Origin: Xanthomonas sacchari
GTDB lineage: Bacteria; Pseudomonadota; Gammaproteobacteria; Xanthomonadales; Xanthomonadaceae
Direction of reading: 5' to 3'
Length of the DNA: 64,000 nucleotides
NCBI RefSeq assembly: GCF_024266585.1
Contig: NZ_CP100647.1
Span: 1,717,001 to 1,781,000, forward strand
The notes below the pieces were generated by a model, which was given only the letters and a program-made list of their open reading frames with translations, was not told where the DNA came from and ran no database searches. This document shows positions 50,204-59,142 of this stretch, piece after piece (within the stretch, counting starts at the first letter, position 1; the number at the start of each line of letters is the position of its first letter). The position numbers and the translations under genes were made by a program.

Positions 50204-51063
50204 CGTTGGAGCTGTGCGCTGCGTCTGCGGCGAGGGCGGCGGTGTGAAGGCGCGGCGGTTCCAACATCGCCGCGAAGAAGAGCGCACGCGCCGCAAGACG
50301 TACTCCCCTTTCCCCCCCGGGAGAGGGGGTGGGGGTGAGGGGCGGCGCGAGCGCAGTCGCTCAGCGCAGTCGCTGCGTCCGCGGCGACCCAGCCGTGGCG
50401 TTGCGCCACGGCCGCTTGGTGCGGGCGAGGTGCACGCCATGCGTGCACGGCATGCGATGGCGCAGGAGCAGCAGACGGAGGGCGCCTTTAACTGCGCCGC
50501 AGAGGGGCACTTCGTTACCTTTGCAGAACTGGCTTCAGCCGCGACGGGGTTCTACAGCTACATCTCGCAACGGTTGAAGCCACTCCTATGCGCGACGGAG
50601 TTAGATGCGCCGCGTGCTCAGGCCTGCATTACGTGTACGTTGTTCGTGGTCGCGACAACCGCGCTTAGCCCGAGTTGCGCAGGGGGGGCGCAGGTCCCAC
50701 ACGGTAATGCTGCGCGGAGGCCTGTGCGATACATGGAATCACGTGGCGCACAGCAAAATCCGCAAGCAGCCGGTCGATGCGCGTCTGCCCGATCATCGCC
50801 TGCGATGCGCAGTGTCGTCCGATGGTAGGCATTGCTTGCCATCGCTGGCGCACATGCCGTTGCGGAAGCCTTCGAGGCGCGCTCGGCCGATATGAGGACA
50901 AACCGGTCAGGCCGCATGCGCAGGCGCGCCCGGCGATCGCCGCATTCACGGCGCCGCCGCCGCCGCGTTTAGAGGGAGGTCGCCCTCCATCCGTGGCGCT
51001 GCCAAGTCGCCGACGCGGCGTGGCCATGGTGCCGGGGTGGTCCCGTCCTCGTGGAGTAACGCC
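50204..51063. other. Gene-poor region before the deaminase-like gene
   Basis: I see no convincing gene. The stretch contains a partial copy of the 140-bp repeat family (GGGAGAGGGGGTGGGGGTGA near 50321), a decayed GGCTTCAGCCGCGAC element near 50532, and GC-rich sequence without consistent codon bias in any frame. Confidence 0.5.
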
Positions 51064-51507
51064 ATGCCCGACAGCGCAGGTGTATCCGGGTTCCGCTCGG
51101 TGTCGTTCGAACGGCGAAGGCGGCTACGACGATGGACGCGGCTGCGCCATGGCCTGTGCGTGACACTGGCGTGCATCGCGGTGGCCTTGGCGCCATCGTG
51201 GGATGCGCGTAGCGCGCCGTCGGCCCCGCAGCCACTGCCCCGCGTAGTGCCCGTGGCTGGGCCGAGCGATGGCCGGTGCACGACCGGTCCGCCTTCCGTG
51301 CTCGATCTTCGCCAGTGCGCGGTGCGTGCCGTTGCCTGCCTCCGCGCAGCAGCGTCGGCGCACGCAAGGCCCCAGCAAACCGGGCTGCGGCCCAGTTCCC
51401 GGGCGGCGGACCCCGCTGCCGTTCTCTTCCCTTCAAGGACCCGACATGGCCTATTTCAAGCTTGCCGAGCAGACACAGCTGAATCGCTACGTCTGCGACT
51501 TCCATAG
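51064..51507 (+). CDS. Possible small exported protein (doubtful)
   Basis: An ATG at 51064 with GGAG eight bases upstream opens a 147-aa frame whose N-terminus looks like a long signal peptide: basic residues (RRRRLRRWTRLRHG), a hydrophobic core (LCVTLACIAVALA) and a cleavage-like SARSA-type end. The remainder is Arg/Ala-rich with no family features and overlaps the next gene by 62 bp, which is unusual. It may be chance coding in GC-rich DNA. Confidence 0.25.
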   Translation: MPDSAGVSGFRSVSFERRRRLRRWTRLRHGLCVTLACIAVALAPSWDARSAPSAPQPLPRVVPVAGPSDGRCTTGPPSVLDLRQCAVRAVACLRAAASAHARPQQTGLRPSSRAADPAAVLFPSRTRHGLFQACRADTAESLRLRLP

Positions 51508-53650
51508 TCACTTCACCGGCATCCTGCCGACCCAGCGCAAGGAGCTGGACGACACGCGGTCGTCGCTGGCGCAGTTGCTGGCGCAGCGCTTCTACGCCAA
51601 CGATCGGCATGCAACGGCCAAGGGCGAACTGTTGCTGTTCCGCTACGCGCTGACATTGATGACCGAGCGCACAAGCAATCCCTTCGCCCGGTTGCTGGGC
51701 AAGCGCAACCGCACCGAGTACGAACGGGCCGAATGCGTGGCGGAGAACATCTACATCGCCTGTCAGGTGATCGCGGCCGAGTACGGCTACGTGCGCAGCG
51801 AGTTGGCGCTGCCGCCGCAATCGCCCATGCTCTACACGCTGGTCGACACCGAGATCGTCACCCCGGCTCTGGCCTCGGCGGATGGCCCCCACCCCAGCCT
51901 TCGCACGCTGGTGCGCTACTTCAACAACAAGTTCTACAGCGCCAGCAAGTACACCCCGTTCGACGATGCCTACAAGCTGCGCGGCCATTTCGTGAAGCAG
52001 CTGTGCCAGGGGGATCCGGCCGACTACAAAAACTGGAGCGAGTCGCAGAAGGCCGACTACCGCCTGTGGGTATGGGCGATCTTCAACTACCTGCGCGAGG
52101 ACGGCGTGCTGCTGATCCAGGCTGCCGCCACCGAGGACGAGATCCCGCAACTGGCGGGGCTGGCGCAGGACTACAACGTCCAGTACGGCACCGATTATCG
52201 GCTTCTGGTGCATTCGCCGCATCACTACATGCCTGATGGTGCCTTGAAGAAATACCTGGACGACAAGGTCGCGCCGCTGCTGACCGGCCAGGGGAAAGGA
52301 GATTCGATCATCGTCGGGCTGGACCTGCTCGGCGCGGAGAACAAGGTCGGCAACTACGCCGAACTGTTCACCTGGCTGCAGCAGAACGCCAACGTGCTGA
52401 GCGCAAATTTCGGCAGCGGCGCAGGCAAGCGCGCGCTGCGTGCGATGGTGCACATCCACTGCGGCGAAGGCAGTGGTTTCGGCGCGGAGAACCGGTCGGT
52501 GACCGGCTACTATCTGCATCAGGTCGGCGACCCGGATGCCCGGTTCTACGCAGCACTGTCCGCGCATGTGCTCGATGCCTGGAACGCCGCCAATGGCAAG
52601 CGCGGCGCCACGCCGCGCGGCACGCGCGGGACCGCGGTTCCGCAGGGGCTGTTCGAGGAGTTGTTCGCCAACACCGCCTTCAGTCACGACGGGCATGTGC
52701 TGCGCCGCTTCGACATCAACGCGCCGCTGTCGCGCGAACTGGCCGGCTACAACGCCAAGCGCAACGTGATGGCGCTGAGCGAGGCGCTGGATCGGCGGTC
52801 GCTCGATGTCAATCGCGACGTCTACCACGCGTTGGTGGAGAACAATCCGCTGTACGCATTCCGCCTGGGACACGACTACTACTACCGCAACTACATGGCC
52901 GCGCGTTATCCGTGGCTGGCCTTCGACACCAACCTCGGCAGCAATGCGATCACCGGTGCCTCCGCATTGTTCGATTCCGTGCAGGGCTACCGGCTCAACC
53001 GCGGCTATCGGCAACTGGACGGCTACATCGACACCGACGTGCTCGAGGCTGTCGGCAATGCGGTGCTGAGCATGGAAACGCAGGGCCTGGATCGGGCGCA
53101 GATCGCCAAGTTCGTCGCTCTCAGCCAACAGAGCGGCGATCTGGCGACCACACTGCGCGACAACCAAGCCTATCTGCAGAGACAGCTGCAGGCGGCGCTG
53201 CAGCCGATCTACGACCCGGCACAGGCCGAGTTCCTGTTCGGCACCTATTGCAAGCTGGTCCTGTATTGCGCCGGCGACGCCCCGGCCGCGGCGCTGCGTT
53301 ACCAGGCCATGGTGCGCGCGTTGCTGGTCGTGCAGAACTGGCGCTCCTATCTGCTGGGCGCCGACGGTCAGGGCGTGGAGCATACCGGCGTGCAGCGCGA
53401 ATACCTGCGCATGCTGGTGCTGCTGATCTACAAGCTGCTGCCGAACAACCAGAACGAACTGCAGGTGGATCTGCTGCAGACCCTGGCCACGCTGCTGCGC
53501 AGGCTGGCCTTGAGCTACTGGCGCGCCACGGTAGGGCCGACCAGCGCGCTGGAAGTCACCGGCAGCCTGCTCCGGCTGGAATCGCTGGACGGCTTCAAGG
53601 GCCCGGCCTCGGTGGTCGTGGTGCGGCGTGCGCCGCCGGCCTCGTCATGA
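51446..53650 (+). CDS. Adenosine deaminase-superfamily-like metalloprotein
   Basis: The predicted protein has 734 aa, starts at ATG 51446 and shows no signal peptide. The metal-site motifs of adenosine deaminases appear in order: H20-x-H22 in DFHSHFTG (as LHVHLDG), H338-C-G-E341 in HIHCGEGSG (as HAGE), H476 in RLGHDYYYRNY (as RVGHGYHT), the AFDTNLGSNAITGA segment (as FEICPWSSYLTGA), and D531 in YIDTDVLEA (as NTDDP). Large insertions make it twice the normal enzyme size, in the range of RdrB, the deaminase of the RADAR phage-defence system, but no RdrA ATPase gene is adjacent. The last 200 residues are helical without a known motif. It is coupled to the next small gene and lies 530 bp before the R-body sigma factor gene. 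Confidence 0.7.
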   Translation: MAYFKLAEQTQLNRYVCDFHSHFTGILPTQRKELDDTRSSLAQLLAQRFYANDRHATAKGELLLFRYALTLMTERTSNPFARLLGKRNRTEYERAECVAENIYIACQVIAAEYGYVRSELALPPQSPMLYTLVDTEIVTPALASADGPHPSLRTLVRYFNNKFYSASKYTPFDDAYKLRGHFVKQLCQGDPADYKNWSESQKADYRLWVWAIFNYLREDGVLLIQAAATEDEIPQLAGLAQDYNVQYGTDYRLLVHSPHHYMPDGALKKYLDDKVAPLLTGQGKGDSIIVGLDLLGAENKVGNYAELFTWLQQNANVLSANFGSGAGKRALRAMVHIHCGEGSGFGAENRSVTGYYLHQVGDPDARFYAALSAHVLDAWNAANGKRGATPRGTRGTAVPQGLFEELFANTAFSHDGHVLRRFDINAPLSRELAGYNAKRNVMALSEALDRRSLDVNRDVYHALVENNPLYAFRLGHDYYYRNYMAARYPWLAFDTNLGSNAITGASALFDSVQGYRLNRGYRQLDGYIDTDVLEAVGNAVLSMETQGLDRAQIAKFVALSQQSGDLATTLRDNQAYLQRQLQAALQPIYDPAQAEFLFGTYCKLVLYCAGDAPAAALRYQAMVRALLVVQNWRSYLLGADGQGVEHTGVQREYLRMLVLLIYKLLPNNQNELQVDLLQTLATLLRRLALSYWRATVGPTSALEVTGSLLRLESLDGFKGPASVVVVRRAPPASS

Positions 53651-53940
53651 TCGGCGCCTGGGCCACGACGGCGCTGGACGAGGTCGCCACCTATCTATGG
53701 CAGGCGGAACTGGCGTGCGTGGAGTCGGCCATCGCCACGCCGACACCCGCGCCAGCGTCGGGCGAGGCGACGCCTCCCCCCGGCTCGCCGCCGCAGGCAC
53801 CGCAGCCACCGACTCCAACCTCGGCGCAGAGACAGGAGCCAGTGCTGCCAGCGGCGGATGCAAAGCCGGACATCCAGCAGTTGCTGCATGCGCTCCGCGA
53901 TCAGAAGGTACTGGAGGCCTTGGTCAAGCTGCTGCGCTGA
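53647..53940 (+). CDS. Small Pro-rich protein coupled to the deaminase-like gene
   Basis: The predicted protein has 97 aa. Its ATG overlaps the preceding stop (ATGA). It has an N-terminal helix (WATTALDEVATYLWQAELA), a central Pro/Ala/Gln linker of about 40 residues and a C-terminal amphipathic helix (DIQQLLHALRDQKVLEALVK). It looks like an adaptor or partner of the deaminase-like protein. No family is recognised. A terminator follows immediately, so the pair forms a two-gene unit. Confidence 0.6.
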   Translation: MIGAWATTALDEVATYLWQAELACVESAIATPTPAPASGEATPPPGSPPQAPQPPTPTSAQRQEPVLPAADAKPDIQQLLHALRDQKVLEALVKLLR

Positions 53941-53961
53941 GCTGATCGCGAACGCACGATC

Positions 53962-53996
53962 CGGGCCCGCTGTCTGTGCAGTGTGCCCGTTTTTTT
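53962..53996 (+). terminator. Rho-independent terminator after the deaminase-like unit
   Basis: CGGGC (53962-53966) pairs with GCCCG (53985-53989) across a structured loop, followed by a run of seven T (53990-53996). It separates the deaminase-like pair from the sigma factor and R-body genes. Confidence 0.6.
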
Positions 53997-54180
53997 GCGC
54001 GAATGGCCCACAGAATCACGGAGAAGCTGCCTTCGCCGTATGCATGCGTAGACAAAGCGCGCACACACGCCACCTCCCGTGCGGCTGCGCGGGCATCGCC
54101 CCGCGGTTGTCACCCAGGGAACAGCTATTGCTGCCGGCCCCCACAGAGACTCGTCGCACAAGGGGATTTCGGAGCATGCG

Positions 54181-54747
54181 ATGGAGAGGGCAATGGAAAA
54201 GTCAGGCGTGGACGCCTTGCGATTCGCCGAGGCCGACGAGATGTTCACCCGCGCCTGGCGCGCCATGCTGCCGGATCTGCGGCGGCGCGCGTTGCGGTTG
54301 GCCAACGGGCGTGCGGATGCGGCCGAGGACCTACTGTCGGACACCGCGGTCAAGGCGTTGCTGTTCATGCGCCGCTCGCCGGATGCGATGACCGACCCGC
54401 AGGGGTTCTTGTTCGTGGTGTTGCGCCACGTGTTCCTGGACCTGGCGCGGCGGCGCCGCGGCGGTGGCGAACCGCTGGATCGCTCTTCCGAGGCTAAGGA
54501 AGTGGACGCCGTGGCCGATCAAGGAATGACCGCCCTGCAACGTGCCGAACTGGAGGAGCAGATGGAGCGCGTGGTGACGGCGGTGGCGGCGCTGAGTCGG
54601 GAGCAGCGCCGCCTGTTCGCCTACCGCTTCGTCGAGGAGTTGCCCTATCCGGCCATCGCCAACCTACTGCGTATCAACCAGCCGCTGGCGCGCAAGCGCG
54701 TGGAGCTGCTGCGCAAGCGGCTGCGCCTGGCGCTGGTGGCCGAATGA
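54181..54747 (+). CDS. ECF-like sigma-70 factor of the R-body locus
   Basis: The predicted protein has 188 aa. ATG 54181 has GGAG six bases upstream; ATG 54193, with GGAGAGG before it, is an alternative. Region 2 includes DAAEDLLSDTAVKALLFM and FLFVVLRHVFLDLARRRRGG; region 4 includes LSREQRRLFAYRFVEELPYP and the recognition helix IANLLRINQPLARKRVELLR. No anti-sigma gene is adjacent. It lies just upstream of the first rebB-like gene in the same orientation, so it probably drives the R-body genes. That link is inferred from position. Confidence 0.85.
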   Translation: MERAMEKSGVDALRFAEADEMFTRAWRAMLPDLRRRALRLANGRADAAEDLLSDTAVKALLFMRRSPDAMTDPQGFLFVVLRHVFLDLARRRRGGGEPLDRSSEAKEVDAVADQGMTALQRAELEEQMERVVTAVAALSREQRRLFAYRFVEELPYPAIANLLRINQPLARKRVELLRKRLRLALVAE

Positions 54748-54908
54748 GCGTGTTGGCCGCAGCGGCTTCACAAGCCGCCCACGGCGGCGTTTTCCCTCCA
54801 CGCCGGGCCGCGTAGGCCGCGGCATCGCGGGCGCCGCGGCGGGGCGCGGCACAGGCCATCCCCGTCGCGGCGCCTCCCCGGCAGGCGACTCACCAAGGAA
54901 TCAGGCTC

Positions 54909-55142
54909 ATGGCAGACAACACGTTCGTCAATTCGCAGATCACCGATGCGGTCACCCAGACCAACGTCAAGGTGGTGGCTGAGGCGCCCGCCCAGGCGAT
55001 CGCCTCGCTGTATCAGGTCTCCAGCCACTCCACCGGGCTGGCGTTGCAGAACGCGGTGCACAGCCAGCAGGCGCTGAACCAGGTCTCCAATGCGGTGGTG
55101 TCCAAGGCGGTGGCGCTGATCATGGCGATCGGCGAGAAGTGA
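54909..55142 (+). CDS. RebB-family R-body protein (first paralogue)
   Basis: The predicted protein has 77 aa. Its opening NSQITDAVTQTNVKVVAEAP is the RebB signature, followed by an amphipathic helix (AIASLYQVSSHSTGLALQNA). RebB-type proteins polymerise into R-bodies, coiled protein ribbons that unroll on a pH shift and were first known from Caedibacter killer symbionts. AAGGA precedes the ATG. It lies 161 bp after the sigma factor gene and 53 bp before the next reb-type gene. Confidence 0.88.
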   Translation: MADNTFVNSQITDAVTQTNVKVVAEAPAQAIASLYQVSSHSTGLALQNAVHSQQALNQVSNAVVSKAVALIMAIGEK

Positions 55143-55195
55143 TGCAGCGCCGGGACGGCTGAGACGGGTACCGATTCATCCATCAGGAGAGTGGC

Positions 55196-56035
55196 ATGTG
55201 GCCTTTCGCAAGCAAGAAGACTTCCGCCTCCCCGCCGGCCGCCGCGGCGGCGCCGGCCGGTGCGGCAACAGTGCCGTCATCCACCATGGGGGCGGCACAG
55301 ACTCCGGATGCGCCGGCGCCGGAGGCGGCCAGCGGCACTGCAGCCGCGGCGCCGGTCGCCGCAGATAGTCCCTCCGCCGCGGTGCCAGCGAGTAGCGAGG
55401 CCAGCAGCGCGCCCGCCGCTGCGGCAGGCGCCGCGGTGCCCCCCGCGGTCGCGCCCGCCGCCGACGCCGCGCCTGCGGCAGCGGCAGGTGGCGATGGCGC
55501 ATCGCCGCCCGCGGCGCCGCCAGCCGCTCCGGTCTCGCCGTCGCCTCCACCGCCGCCGTCCATGCTGAAGACGCTCAACACCCACATGCTGGCGCAGGCC
55601 TCCGCGGAACGGCCGGCCAGCGACGCGCTCAACAGCAAGATCGTGCAGGCCGTGCAGCTCAGCAATGCCGAGACCATGGCCTACGCGCCGTCGCAGATCG
55701 TGGTCGGCTCGAACATGCTGATCAGCCAGGCGTCGGGCCTGATCGCGCAATCGGCGGCGGTGTACTTCGACGGCGTCAGCAAGATGGCGCTGGCCAGCCA
55801 GGGCGTGCTGCTCAAGCAGATGACCGAGAACCTGGCCGAGAACAAGATGGAGCAAGCCGCCGAGGATGCGCTGGGTGTGCTGGCCACCGACGTGCTGGTC
55901 GGTGCCGCAGCGGCAGTCGCGGCGGCCGCCGGCGCGCTGGAGGCCGAATCCGCCGGCTTCGCCATCGACAAGATCGACCAGAGCATCGCCAAGTACGCGG
56001 ACCTGATGCGCGGCCGCAAGTCCGCGTCCACGTAG
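55196..56035 (+). CDS. RebB-like protein with long Ala/Pro-rich N-terminal extension
   Basis: The predicted protein has 279 aa, with a strong AGGAGAG ribosome-binding site. Residues 1-120 are low-complexity Ala/Pro/Ser sequence likely to be extended. Residues about 140-210 resemble the RebB core (ALNSKIVQAVQLSNAETMAY; SQASGLIAQSAAVYFDGVSK), and an Ala-rich hydrophobic helix (LVGAAAAVAAAAGALEAE) lies near the end. It may cap, anchor or space the ribbon, or modulate its polymerisation as the non-major Reb proteins are thought to do. That role is inferred. Confidence 0.75.
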   Translation: MWPFASKKTSASPPAAAAAPAGAATVPSSTMGAAQTPDAPAPEAASGTAAAAPVAADSPSAAVPASSEASSAPAAAAGAAVPPAVAPAADAAPAAAAGGDGASPPAAPPAAPVSPSPPPPPSMLKTLNTHMLAQASAERPASDALNSKIVQAVQLSNAETMAYAPSQIVVGSNMLISQASGLIAQSAAVYFDGVSKMALASQGVLLKQMTENLAENKMEQAAEDALGVLATDVLVGAAAAVAAAAGALEAESAGFAIDKIDQSIAKYADLMRGRKSAST

Positions 56036-56078
56036 GCCGTTTGCACCACCGATTCCACCACACTCACAGGGGAACACC

Positions 56079-56642
56079 ATGCAAGACAACCAAGCATCCG
56101 ATTCCGCCACGCTGCAACAGTTCGCCCAGAGGTGGCTGGGCCGCGCGCTGACGCCCATCGAGGAAGAGCAACTGCGGCGCTTCGCGTCAGAAACGTCTGC
56201 ACCGCCAGCGGTGCCTGCCGCAGAAGTCGATGGGGCCTCGCCGTCGCTGATCGACACCGAGCGCCAGCGGGTGCAGGGCCTGATCCAGCAAATGATGCAG
56301 AAGATGCAGAACACCCGCGGCGAGCTGAACGGCGCCACCGCGGCCAGCGAAGCGGCGGTGCTCAAGGCGGTGCAGTCGGCCAATTCGTTGGACCAGTTGC
56401 GACCGGGCCAATTGCGTCCGCCGCAGCACGGCGAAGGCGGCATGAACCACATGGTGATGTCGCAGATCGCCGATCGCCTGGCCAACCTCGTGCAGGCCGA
56501 AGTGCGTGCGTGCTTCGATCGCGAATTCGCCAACCTGGCCCAGCAGATGCAGGCCGTGATCGATGCGGCGCGCGCGCAGGGACTCATCGCGGACGCGCAG
56601 GCCGCGGCGCCGCAAGCGCCATCGCCGTCCTCCGGGGCCTGA
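56079..56642 (+). CDS. R-body-locus protein of unknown function
   Basis: The predicted soluble protein has 187 aa and GGGGAACACC before its ATG. It is Gln/Ala-rich and helical, with segments SLIDTERQRVQGLIQQMMQK and MSQIADRLANLVQAEVRACF that suggest coiled coil. No family was recognised. It sits between RebB-type genes in the same orientation (43 bp after the previous one), so a role in R-body assembly or a chaperone function is the natural guess, without direct evidence. Confidence 0.7.
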   Translation: MQDNQASDSATLQQFAQRWLGRALTPIEEEQLRRFASETSAPPAVPAAEVDGASPSLIDTERQRVQGLIQQMMQKMQNTRGELNGATAASEAAVLKAVQSANSLDQLRPGQLRPPQHGEGGMNHMVMSQIADRLANLVQAEVRACFDREFANLAQQMQAVIDAARAQGLIADAQAAAPQAPSPSSGA

Positions 56643-57146
<504 letters not shown>

Positions 57147-57473
57147 ATGGCATTTCCCACCGCGGTCAACGACCAGATCACCGATGCGGTCACCCAGTCC
57201 AACGTCAAGGTCATCGGCGAAGCGCCGGCCTTCGCGATGGCGTCGATCTACCAGAGCATGGCGCACTCGACCGGCATCCTGTTCGAGAACGCCGTCTCCG
57301 CGCAGCAGCAGCAGAACACCCTGGCGCAGGCGGCGGCCAACCAGGGCGTCATGCAGATCTACAGCCTGGACACCACCGCCGCCGCCGGCGCCACCGAGAA
57401 GGTCGCGCAGACCGGTGTTTCCGACAACCTCACCAGCCTGCTGACCGTGCTCAACGCGTTCAAGCAGTCGTAA
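57147..57473 (+). CDS. RebB-family R-body protein (second paralogue)
   Basis: The predicted protein has 108 aa and starts MAFPTAVNDQITDAVTQSNV, with CAGGAG upstream of the ATG. The RebB core is followed by a Gln-rich turn (SAQQQQNTLAQAAANQG) and a conserved tail (VSDNLTSLLTVLNAFKQS). It is close to identical over most of its length to the next gene. It is most likely a main structural subunit of the R-body ribbon. Confidence 0.9.
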   Translation: MAFPTAVNDQITDAVTQSNVKVIGEAPAFAMASIYQSMAHSTGILFENAVSAQQQQNTLAQAAANQGVMQIYSLDTTAAAGATEKVAQTGVSDNLTSLLTVLNAFKQS

Positions 57474-57482
57474 GCAACGCGC

Positions 57483-57510
57483 GCTAACGCCGCCGCGAGG
57501 CGGCGCTAGC
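57483..57510 (+). other. Intercistronic hairpin between the two main reb genes
   Basis: GCTAACGCCGCC (57483-57494) and GGCGGCGCTAGC (57499-57510) pair with one mismatch around a GCGA tetraloop. No T-run follows. It may stabilise the upstream message or set the ratio of the two subunits. Confidence 0.55.
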
Positions 57511-57542
57511 CACGCAATTTCCTTCCTAACGAGGACCGTTCC

Positions 57543-57884
57543 ATGGCCTATCCCACCGCAGTCAACAACCAGATCACCGACGCCGTCACCCAGTCCAACG
57601 TCAAGGTCATCGGCGAAGCACCAGCCTTCGCGATGGGCTCGATCTACCAGAGCCTGGCGCACTCCAGCGGTATCCTGTACGAGAACGCGGTCGCCGCGCA
57701 GCAGCAGCAGAACACGCTGGCGCAGGCGGCGAACAACATGGGTGTCATGCAGGTGTACTCCCTGGACACCACCGCGGCCGCCGGCGCATCGGAGAAGATC
57801 GCCCAGACCGGCGTATCGGACAACCTGACCAGCCTGCTGACCGTGTTGCAGGCGTTTCAGGGCGGCAAGCCGGCCGGCCTCTGA
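57543..57884 (+). CDS. RebB-family R-body protein (third paralogue)
   Basis: The predicted protein has 113 aa and starts MAYPTAVNNQITDAVTQSNV, with GAGG upstream. It shares the whole architecture of the preceding protein (AAQQQQNTLAQAANNMG; VSDNLTSLLTVLQAFQGG) and differs mainly at scattered conservative positions and in the last few residues, so it is a tandem duplicate. It is probably co-assembled in the R-body as a second main subunit. Confidence 0.9.
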   Translation: MAYPTAVNNQITDAVTQSNVKVIGEAPAFAMGSIYQSLAHSSGILYENAVAAQQQQNTLAQAANNMGVMQVYSLDTTAAAGASEKIAQTGVSDNLTSLLTVLQAFQGGKPAGL

Positions 57885-57900
57885 GTCCGCACGTCGGTCC

Positions 57901-57932
57901 GGAACGGCGAACCCGTCAGGTCTCGCCGTTCC
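57901..57932 (+). terminator. Hairpin after the reb pair
   Basis: GGAACGGCGA (57901-57910) and TCGCCGTTCC (57923-57932) form a perfect 10-bp stem with a 12-nt loop, 17 bp after the last reb stop. No T-run follows, so termination efficiency is uncertain. Confidence 0.5.
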
Positions 57933-58070
57933 TCGCTGCAGCTGTCGACGCCGTCGACCGTTTCCCCCTGCAGGCCGCTTGCCCAGCGCGCCTCGCCTAT
58001 GCCGTTACCCACCCGTGCCTGGCGCGTTCGACGCCCGGCGTCGTACGTCCTGCGTCCGAGAAGAGGGAGT

Positions 58071-58928
58071 ATGGAGGTTCCAGCCAACGTCCATCTGGAG
58101 ACGATCGAGCGCAGCGTGCCTGGCCACGACGACGGCGACGCATGCACGGACATCGCCGGCCAAGAGCATCGCCGCCTGCTGGAACGCGCGCCGTTGTTCC
58201 AGGGTTTGCCGGACTTGGTACTGGACGACCTGCTCGCCCATGTCAGCGAATGCGCGCTGGATGCGGGCAGCGTCCTGTTCTTCAAGCACGATCCCAGTAG
58301 CTTCGTCGGTGTGGTCGTGCGCGGTCGTGTGTACAAGGTGCTGTACGGCCCGGATGGGCAGGAACTGATCGTCGGCGCGGTCGAGCCCGGCGGGCTGGTG
58401 GACGAGGCCGCGCTGCTGGAACCGCACGGACGCAGCTTCACCGCCATTGCCTTTGGCGCCAGCGTGGTGCTGAAGCTGCCGCGGCGCCACTTCAACGTCC
58501 TGCTGGATCCGCCGCTGCTGCAGCTGCGCATCCACGCATTGCTGCGTCTGCGCCTGCGGCAGACTCTGGACAGCCTGGAAAGCATCTGCCTGCACCGACT
58601 GGAAGTGCGCCTGGCGCGCTACGTGTTGCGCCAACTCGAACTGCAGGCCACACCCCATGGGAGCGACTGCACCATCGCCCTGCCGCCGAACCAGAGCATC
58701 CTGGCCGCGATGCTCAACATCAGCCGCTCCAAACTCAATGCACAGTTGCAGCGCTGGGTGCGCAGCGGCCTGGTCAGTCGCCGTCGCCAGCTGCTGCGCA
58801 TCCACGACCTCGGCGCGCTGTATGCCAAGGCCAACCTGCAGGGGCTGGTCGCTATGCCGGCGAGCGAGGATGGGGAGAGGCCTGTGCGTGCTGTCAGCCT
58901 GCCGTGGGCGGATCGGCGCGCCGAGTGA
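58071..58928 (+). CDS. Crp/Fnr-family transcriptional regulator of the R-body locus
   Basis: The predicted protein has 285 aa; ATG 58071 is preceded by AAGAGGGAG. A cyclic-nucleotide-binding-type beta roll spans about residues 45-150 (LFFKHDPSSFVGVVVRGRVY; GGLVDEAALLEPHGRSFTAI), then the long dimer helix and a winged helix-turn-helix (NQSILAAMLNISRSKLNAQL; GLVSRRRQLLRIHD). No Fnr-type Fe-S cysteine cluster is seen at the N-terminus, so it is Crp-like or senses another ligand. Position after the reb genes suggests it regulates them. Confidence 0.85.
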   Translation: MEVPANVHLETIERSVPGHDDGDACTDIAGQEHRRLLERAPLFQGLPDLVLDDLLAHVSECALDAGSVLFFKHDPSSFVGVVVRGRVYKVLYGPDGQELIVGAVEPGGLVDEAALLEPHGRSFTAIAFGASVVLKLPRRHFNVLLDPPLLQLRIHALLRLRLRQTLDSLESICLHRLEVRLARYVLRQLELQATPHGSDCTIALPPNQSILAAMLNISRSKLNAQLQRWVRSGLVSRRRQLLRIHDLGALYAKANLQGLVAMPASEDGERPVRAVSLPWADRRAE

Positions 58929-59142
58929 GGTGAGCGATCAAGCGCGGATCGATTGTCCATCGCACTCGATCCCAAGGTATCGAACACCCTGTCCATGCCA
59001 CGCGATGTGGTGGCTGGCGCGCTCGTGTCAGAAGCTACGCACCCTGGTCAGGAGTGCGCCTTGATAGCGGCGGCGGTCGGTCTCGACATGCAAGAGGCAG
59101 CGACGCGGATGTGCGCCTGCGTCTTGGAGGCGCCGCACGATG

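Follow-up and report, generated by a model that had tools for sequence, protein, structure and literature searches.

What makes the R-body locus of Xanthomonas sacchari switch on, and does it encode anything besides the ribbon itself? R-bodies are protein ribbons that behave like springs and have been associated with damage to eukaryotic cells, and the question of their cargo dates from the work on Paramecium killers. In the available text of both surveys of the system, the R-body toxin is still called unknown (PMC3583457, PMC13430693). We analyzed a window of 64,000 nucleotides (assembly GCF_024266585.1, contig NZ_CP100647.1, positions 1,717,001 to 1,781,000, numbered here from the first letter of the window), for which an initial annotation had proposed a regulated R-body (reb) locus with four RebB-type proteins. 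The best explanation, to which we give a probability of roughly 0.5, is that this Group 2 R-body locus forms a small private regulon that includes a deaminase-like, optional candidate effector. From the sigma factor gene onward, the locus reads as follows:

54193..54747, + strand: extracytoplasmic function (ECF) sigma factor, TIGR02937, with sigma-70 regions 2 and 4 (alternative start 54181)
54909..55142, + strand: rebI, 77-residue RebB-family protein (PF11747, E = 1.2e-26)
55196..56035, + strand: 279-residue protein with a Pro/Ala-rich N terminus and a distant Reb-like core found by profile-profile comparison
56079..56642, + strand: 187-residue conserved partner
57147..57473, + strand: rebII, 108-residue RebB-family protein (PF11747, E = 5.9e-29)
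57543..57884, + strand: rebIII, 113-residue RebB-family protein (PF11747, E = 5.8e-27)
58071..58928, + strand: Crp/Fnr-type regulator with a cyclic-nucleotide-binding domain (PF00027) and a Crp helix-turn-helix (PF13545)

The initial annotation had placed its reading frames correctly, and all genes of the locus lie on the + strand. The signature ITDAVTQ(S/T)NVKV, which it had read in three small proteins, is common to the products of 54909-55142, 57147-57473, and 57543-57884. These three exceeded the 24-bit cut-off of PF11747 and were the sole matches to that family at E ≤ 0.001 in the whole 4.89-Mb host genome. The proposal had been made to depend on RebB-family matches of the 57147 and 57543 products, and both were found. 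The QITD signature and the NAV and QQQ motifs can be read in rebII and rebIII, and QITD, NAV, and QQ in rebI; all are Reb features described in the available text of the 2026 survey (PMC13430693). Of the four RebB-type proteins claimed, the fourth turned out to be only a distant Reb-like relative. This 279-residue product had no RebB Pfam match, and a profile of its relatives matched a profile of short Reb proteins (E = 1.4e-5, probability 80, 58 columns) and, weakly, one of long Reb proteins (E = 0.016, probability 3). Going by descriptions, it is probably of the RapA or group S4 type; group S4, as far as the available text of Dorr et al. 2026 describes it (PMC13430693), shares the long Pro-rich N terminus and the weak Reb core. 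The 187-residue product, which the initial annotation had passed over, had no Pfam or NCBIfam family above cut-off and, again by description, is probably one of the HP2.x proteins of Raymann.

We scanned named genomes with the 57147 product and kept the best 80 of 279 confirmed loci, picked by likeness to rebII, so that the set is not a census. The open reading frames (ORFs) of these loci were then searched with nine window proteins. At E < 1e-5, the sigma factor was found in 61/80 loci, the Crp-type regulator in 39/80, the 279-residue protein in 61/80, and the 187-residue protein in 35/80; the loci are not all independent (G013/L032, G006/L037, and L119/L033 look the same). Because of its Reb families and this synteny, the locus is almost certainly an R-body locus, as had been proposed. 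Ribbon formation has been shown in relatives, and the Reb proteins encoded here would be expected to polymerize in the same way.

As annotated, the two regulators flank the reb genes in the same orientation. The sigma product scored 62.6 bits against TIGR02937 (cut-off 42.9), and both domains of the Crp/Fnr product were above cut-off. For the crp gene, we took 58071 rather than 57999 as the start because a ribosome-site-like GGGAG stands before it. This layout is not new. In the available text of the 2013 survey, Group 2 comprises reb genes, two hypothetical partners, the sigma factor HP2.3, and the cyclic-nucleotide regulator HP2.4, and the association of both regulators with reb genes is described there (PMC3583457). 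Two conserved partner genes are present at the host locus and, by description, may correspond to HP2.1 and HP2.2. The reb cluster of Pseudomonas aeruginosa PA14 (rebP1P2, rapA, rcgA, fecI2) also combines RebB-family proteins and an extra R-body-associated protein with sigma factor and transcription factor genes, although by description its gene set and order differ; according to the available text, rebP1 is expressed stochastically in 0.26% of cells, and RcgA and FecI2 are both required (PMC8322103). Because the Group 2 description and the PA14 work already cover both regulators, the main point of the initial annotation was known for relatives. The dependence of stochastic rebP1 expression on RcgA and FecI2 makes "tight, perhaps bistable" expression, which the annotation had suggested, plausible here as well. 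The 2026 survey lists Xanthomonas and Lysobacter among reb-rich genera (PMC13430693), and RebB genes of Lysobacter capsici are reported to be down-regulated by diffusible signals (PMC8416617). The word "deaminase" is absent from the main text of both the PA14 paper (PMC8322103) and the 2013 survey, and the Group 2 synteny section of the latter mentions neither a deaminase-like gene pair nor a promoter (PMC3583457). In its available text, the PA14 paper does not spell out a promoter sequence either (PMC8322103).

A conserved block was first seen in aligned Xanthomonas rebII leaders. Its consensus, TTCACR-N15-CGTYY, defines three predicted promoters in the window:

50945..50970, + strand: predicted promoter P1, TTCACG-N15-CGTTT, 501 bp upstream of a gene for a 734-residue protein
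54767..54794, + strand: predicted promoter P2 of the rebI operon, TTCACA-N15-CGTTTTC, from the motif search
57074..57101, + strand: predicted promoter P3 of rebII-rebIII, TTCACA-N15-CGTTTCC, from the motif search

The pattern TTCACA-N15-CGTTTTC with at most one mismatch had exactly two sites in the host genome, before rebI and before rebII (control, 1). The relaxed consensus had seven (reversed-pattern control, 6), three of which lie in the reb locus; in the window, these three compare with 0.12 expected, and none of 100 shuffles had as many. P1 was found after the consensus had been fixed and was not used in setting it. A corresponding site stands 501 to 529 bp upstream of the 734-residue gene in 7/7 Xanthomonas loci, six of them distinct, since L033 and L119 look identical. 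The gap between the two blocks is sharply defined. Among matches at E ≤ 1e-8 with distinct upstream sequences, 40 of 71 rebI upstreams scored at least 10 of 12 at gap 15, compared with no more than 8 at any other gap between 12 and 18. For rebII-type upstreams, many of which belong to later operon genes, the corresponding numbers were 55 of 179 and at most 9. The spacers between the blocks are unrelated in sequence between lineages.

The motif goes with the sigma gene. Among named loci with full flanks, it occurred upstream of a reb gene in 49/49 whose sigma match reached E < 1e-12, but in only 3/14 lacking such a match (Fisher P = 5.9e-10, for loci that are not phylogenetically independent); the three exceptions are Chromobacterium loci whose upstream end was probably cut off by the flank. 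At gaps of 12 to 14 and 16 to 18, at most 3 of the 49 had it. Counted over the whole set of 80, in which short contigs are frequent, the motif was present in 56/56 with sigma and in 12/24 without, counting sigma at the stricter threshold of E < 1e-12 (56/80, against 61/80 at E < 1e-5). Xanthomonas L165 and L166 had neither a sigma match nor the motif in the stretch fetched. Upstream of rebII in L013, L015, and L037, the last from the same genome as L166, TTCACA has changed to TCCACA or TCCGCA; with no sigma match in L166, this suggests that the promoter decayed once sigma was lost. Because motif and sigma gene go together, the dedicated sigma control envisaged by the initial annotation gains support, and we consider it very probable that the sigma factor uses TTCACR-N15-CGTYY promoters. 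No sigma-70-type promoters were found in 50400-59100.

Several observations weigh against this assignment. The strict pattern with two mismatches gave a window count of two, which 11 of 100 shuffles reached. Four full-flank loci with a weak sigma match (E = 5e-8 to 4e-7) lacked the motif; in Pseudomonas L083 and L098, a weak sigma gene stands on the same strand about 1 kb from reb, and this sigma may read another sequence. A terminator-like match (51402-51420) lies between P1 and the 734-residue gene, and P2 overlaps another, its spacer resembling a terminator stem; such matches were near chance level (7 vs 4.3). We make no claim that the motif as such is novel, because a FecI2 logo is already in print as a figure: the PA14 regulon study, in its available text, has motif logos for ten alternative sigma factors including FecI2 (PMC4362757). 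In the open-access library searched, no paper joined a reb operon, a promoter, and an ECF sigma factor. The promoter could serve as a simple sequence tag for further R-body regulon members in other genomes.

The TCACA block could instead mark a site for the Crp-type regulator, since TCACA corresponds to one half of a Crp site and a crp gene accompanies many of the named loci. We regard this as very unlikely. The motif was present in 19/19 full-flank loci in which sigma was matched but crp was not, which favors sigma over Crp as its reader. The constant 15-base gap to a second block corresponds to a -35/-10 layout, and no conserved second half of a Crp site appeared when 70 bases of upstream sequence were compared at 105 sites. 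This comparison required a score of at least 9 and included only 10 of the loci L001-L031, which biases its letter counts at the scored positions; the gap counts and the full-flank comparison are the fairer tests.

With P1, the locus reaches beyond the sigma gene on its upstream side, into a part (50945-53940) that the initial annotation did not cover and that contains three further reading frames:

51064..51507, + strand: small ORF with an Arg-rich N terminus and a signal-like hydrophobic helix, identified by eye in 7 Xanthomonas loci
51446..53650, + strand: 734-residue adenosine-deaminase-like protein, candidate effector, with no Pfam, NCBIfam, or PADLOC family
53647..53940, + strand: 97-residue partner with two short conserved ends and a Pro/Ala-rich linker, its start overlapping the preceding stop (ATGA)

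The 734-residue protein has relatives in 18 of the best 80 named loci, 17 of which also encode the 279-residue protein, and by eye the small partner gene follows it in 16/18. In Lysobacter, Luteimonas, Dyella, and Pseudomonas mangiferae, the gene lies inside the cluster, between the 279-residue gene and the late reb genes, while in Xanthomonas it stands upstream of sigma. In a sample of the order, the family was present in 7 of 299 genomes (host included), and all 7 were among the 31 reb-positive ones (hypergeometric P = 6.7e-8). Each copy shared a contig with reb genes and lay no more than a few kilobases from them. A genus sample gave 6/20, all among 14 reb-positive genomes, which alone is not significant (P = 0.08). 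In a phylum sample of 398 genomes, the host genome was the sole match at E ≤ 0.001, with a short match in a second genome at 0.093; a near-identical draw of 396 genomes held 11 with RebB, so ten reb-positive genomes were without the gene. Co-occurrence and position thus make it quite likely that the 734-residue protein belongs to the R-body system. The gene was missing from 24/31 reb-positive genomes in the order sample and from 8/14 in the genus, and we see it as an optional companion that would be co-expressed with the R-body. Xanthomonas L163 and L164 lack it yet retain sigma, the reb genes, and the small ORF with the signal-like helix, and R-body genes therefore persist without it. The C-terminal part of the small ORF is not conserved and overlaps the 734-residue gene. 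A phage or plasmid origin of the latter was rejected, as searches of phage, plasmid, and viral collections returned no match at E = 1e-3.

What might this protein do? Its motifs stand in adenosine-deaminase order (HSHFxGIL, GLDLLGAE, HCGE, RLGH, GSN), most of them at predicted strands. Some motif letters had been taken from known adenosine deaminases; they were then checked on six fetched ones (L123-L128), of which 6/6 have HxH, HxGE, and xSN, 4/6 the G..L..E block, and 3/6 RxGH. In an alignment of 18 family members (A1), HSH was intact in 16/18, HxGE in 16/18, RxGH in 17/18, and GSN in 16/18. The window protein and 20/20 rows of a second alignment (A2) have HxH, HxGE, RxGH, and SN in this order; their invariance is conditional, because A2 excludes those members whose motifs have degenerated (L034, L059, its likely duplicate L117, and L118) and some near-duplicates. 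A strict composite motif pattern had zero matches. A looser one, run on 2490 ORFs of at least 250 residues, hit only members of the 734-residue family, from 21 sources, namely the window and 20 loci, not all of them from different genomes. AlphaFold2 modeled the full protein with a predicted local distance difference test score (pLDDT) of 82.5 and a predicted template modeling score (pTM) of 0.87, weak around residues 500-520; for residues 1-545, pLDDT was 79.3 and pTM 0.83, falling below 50 past residue 504. For the full model, human ADA1 had the highest probability (0.95) of the 50 Foldseek matches listed. For residues 1-545, it ranked first, and the 50 listed matches included 9 named adenosine deaminases and 2 COG1816 amidohydrolase chains.

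With the adenosine deaminase superfamily (PF00962), RADAR RdrB, and Cad1, the protein shares the motif set and the predicted barrel strands. It also has large inserts, as does RdrB according to the available text (PMC9994260). It differs from all three in a long insert between HxGE and RLGH, an extra C-terminal helical part, its linkage to reb genes, and the lack of a significant sequence or fold match to them. On balance, we consider the protein a likely adenosine-deaminase-type enzyme, a probable superfamily member rather than a proven deaminase.

Several results stand against that classification. No PF00962 match was found in the protein or anywhere in the host genome. In Lysobacter antibioticus L034 and L059, several deaminase-like motifs have been lost, and in Xanthomonas L118 HSD replaces HSH, with the frames open in all three. 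The last metal-binding acid, of an NTDD-type motif, is not clearly matched: candidates are a DTD at 529-531, with D531 in 15/18 rows of A1, and D494 in 18/18, and the pattern for this last motif matched 0/6 of the real deaminases L123-L128. The last motifs also fall in low-confidence regions of both models. Foldseek gave no match at E = 1e-3; ADA1 stood at E = 0.19, rank 11, and a template modeling score of about 0.34 for the full model and, for the trimmed one, at E = 0.31 and probability 0.60, beside IspG with equal E. A profile search of the PDB listed the adenosine deaminase domain of 9c67, which we take to be Cad1, at E = 0.22 and 0.57, with unrelated noise ahead at 0.03-0.06. Compared with real adenosine deaminases, the family profile reached E = 0.055 and a probability of 1%, suggestive only; amidohydrolases, a set chosen automatically by taking the longest HxH-containing ORF of each locus, gave 0.85, and reversed controls gave 0.38 and 0.58.

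Taken together, these features suggest how the regulon could work. The ECF sigma factor of the locus would start transcription at three TTCACR-N15-CGTYY promoters, P3 driving the two long Reb proteins, P2 the short Reb and the two partners, and P1 the deaminase-like enzyme and its small partner, and the Crp-type regulator would gate the switch. P1 points through the enzyme pair at the sigma gene. No terminator-like match was found between the two (53940-54193), so read-through could occur, and it could close a positive loop and make expression all-or-none. Directly before the sigma gene, the window has no motif site; elsewhere, 8 of 61 distinct sigma upstreams scored at least 10 at gap 15. The Reb proteins would polymerize, and the 734-residue protein, probably a metal-dependent hydrolase of the adenosine deaminase type, would be made in the same cells, where it may be active and act together with the R-body on nucleosides or nucleotides. 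That it is an R-body effector or payload is, on the present sequence comparisons, a tentative proposal. In the open-access library searched, no paper joined R-bodies and adenosine deaminase. A reb-linked, apparently co-regulated, enzyme-like gene offers a concrete candidate for an R-body effector.

In an ordinary Group 2 locus, the 734-residue protein could instead serve the assembly, storage, or release of the R-body and not act on a host. Its linkage to reb in all seven order-sample genomes and its reb-type promoter would fit such a role, the small partner with its two conserved ends might link it to the ribbon, and the loss of motif residues from open frames in three loci would allow a non-catalytic function. 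Conservation of HSH, HxGE, and RxGH in most members is unexpected for a scaffold, however, and most sampled reb-positive genomes do without the gene; we hold this role to be less likely than not. The protein might also be an anti-phage enzyme like RADAR RdrB or the CRISPR-associated Cad1, parked beside the reb cluster or recruited by it. The only deaminase-type PDB profile match, along one stretch, was 9c67, and RdrB and Cad1 are published, in the available text, as converting adenosine triphosphate into inosine triphosphate (PMC9994260, PMC11645235). Yet PADLOC, including its RdrB model, returned no family at E ≤ 1; neither a CARF domain, fused to the deaminase in Cad1, nor any other Pfam family was found at that threshold; and the phage, plasmid, and viral collections held no match. 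A position beside reb in every order-sample copy is not expected of a general defense gene, the promoter upstream is of the reb type, and we consider this origin improbable. Equally improbable is a mere hitchhiker without function in the cluster: the gene is optional and its motifs have decayed or vanished in several loci, but its position differs between Xanthomonas and Lysobacter and the same type of site still stands upstream in all seven Xanthomonas loci examined.

A bolder version of the effector proposal is that the R-bodies of Xanthomonadales are armed, the same sigma factor producing both the ribbon and a purine-nucleotide deaminase carried on or alongside it, and that the position of this gene in the cluster is a slot used by other lineages for other proteins. 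We raise it because other lineages hold other ORFs between the 279-residue gene and the late reb genes, and we regard it as doubtful; if it were true, R-bodies would be delivery devices with exchangeable payloads.

The slot itself varies between lineages. In Chromobacterium and Trinickia clusters (L071, L074, L075, L079, and L088), it contains varied ORFs, among them a phage-type lysozyme (PF00959) in L074, lysozyme look-alikes recognized by eye in the other four, a membrane-like protein, a polyhydroxybutyrate (PHB) esterase match below cut-off, and varied large ORFs, one of which, in L079, has a weak likeness to glycosyltransferases. This could possibly be a lysis and payload region. Look-alike proteins of 464 residues (L076:6829-8220) and 458 residues (L063:1828-3201), without a Pfam family, occupy the corresponding slot in Frigidibacter and Tateyamaria. 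In Xanthomonas sp. NCPPB 1128, a second, shortened pair resembling the 279- and 187-residue genes lies upstream of the reb cluster (L032:71-1291).

One further element may act on the transcript from P3:

57109..57126, + strand: inverted repeat GTACGGC-N4-GCCGTAC, a predicted 5'-leader hairpin between P3 and the start of rebII, just before the ribosome-binding site

In 27 gamma- and betaproteobacterial rebII-type leaders, 94.2% of the hairpin cells pair, compared with at most 44% in slid versions, and at three pairs both partners have changed (20 cells). These leaders were drawn from 80; rebI, alphaproteobacterial, and some other leaders were left out, many of them without the hairpin. None of 500 shuffles reached its paired percentage, number of double-change cells, or covariation score. 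The number of pairs with a double change was not unusual (54/500 shuffles as high), nor were the pair types (482/500), and the remaining statistics are inflated by the relatedness of the leaders. Because seven cells are G-U, an RNA hairpin is favored over a DNA operator, and it likely protects an abundant mRNA. In Rfam, the one match was nadA-like, fell below threshold (23.9 bits; gathering threshold, 37.5), lay outside the locus (50531-50581, - strand), and is probably due to chance.

Two repeats were also noted in the gaps between genes. Six perfect copies of CCATGC stand between the 187-residue gene and rebII (56807-56842), and GCCATC-type repeats fill the corresponding gap in another Xanthomonas (L007); the window's copies could be a tract of variable length. 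After rebIII and before crp (57901-57932) lies a perfect 10-bp stem, GGAACGGCGA / TCGCCGTTCC, without a T run, in a region (57890-57950) with a z score of -2.69.

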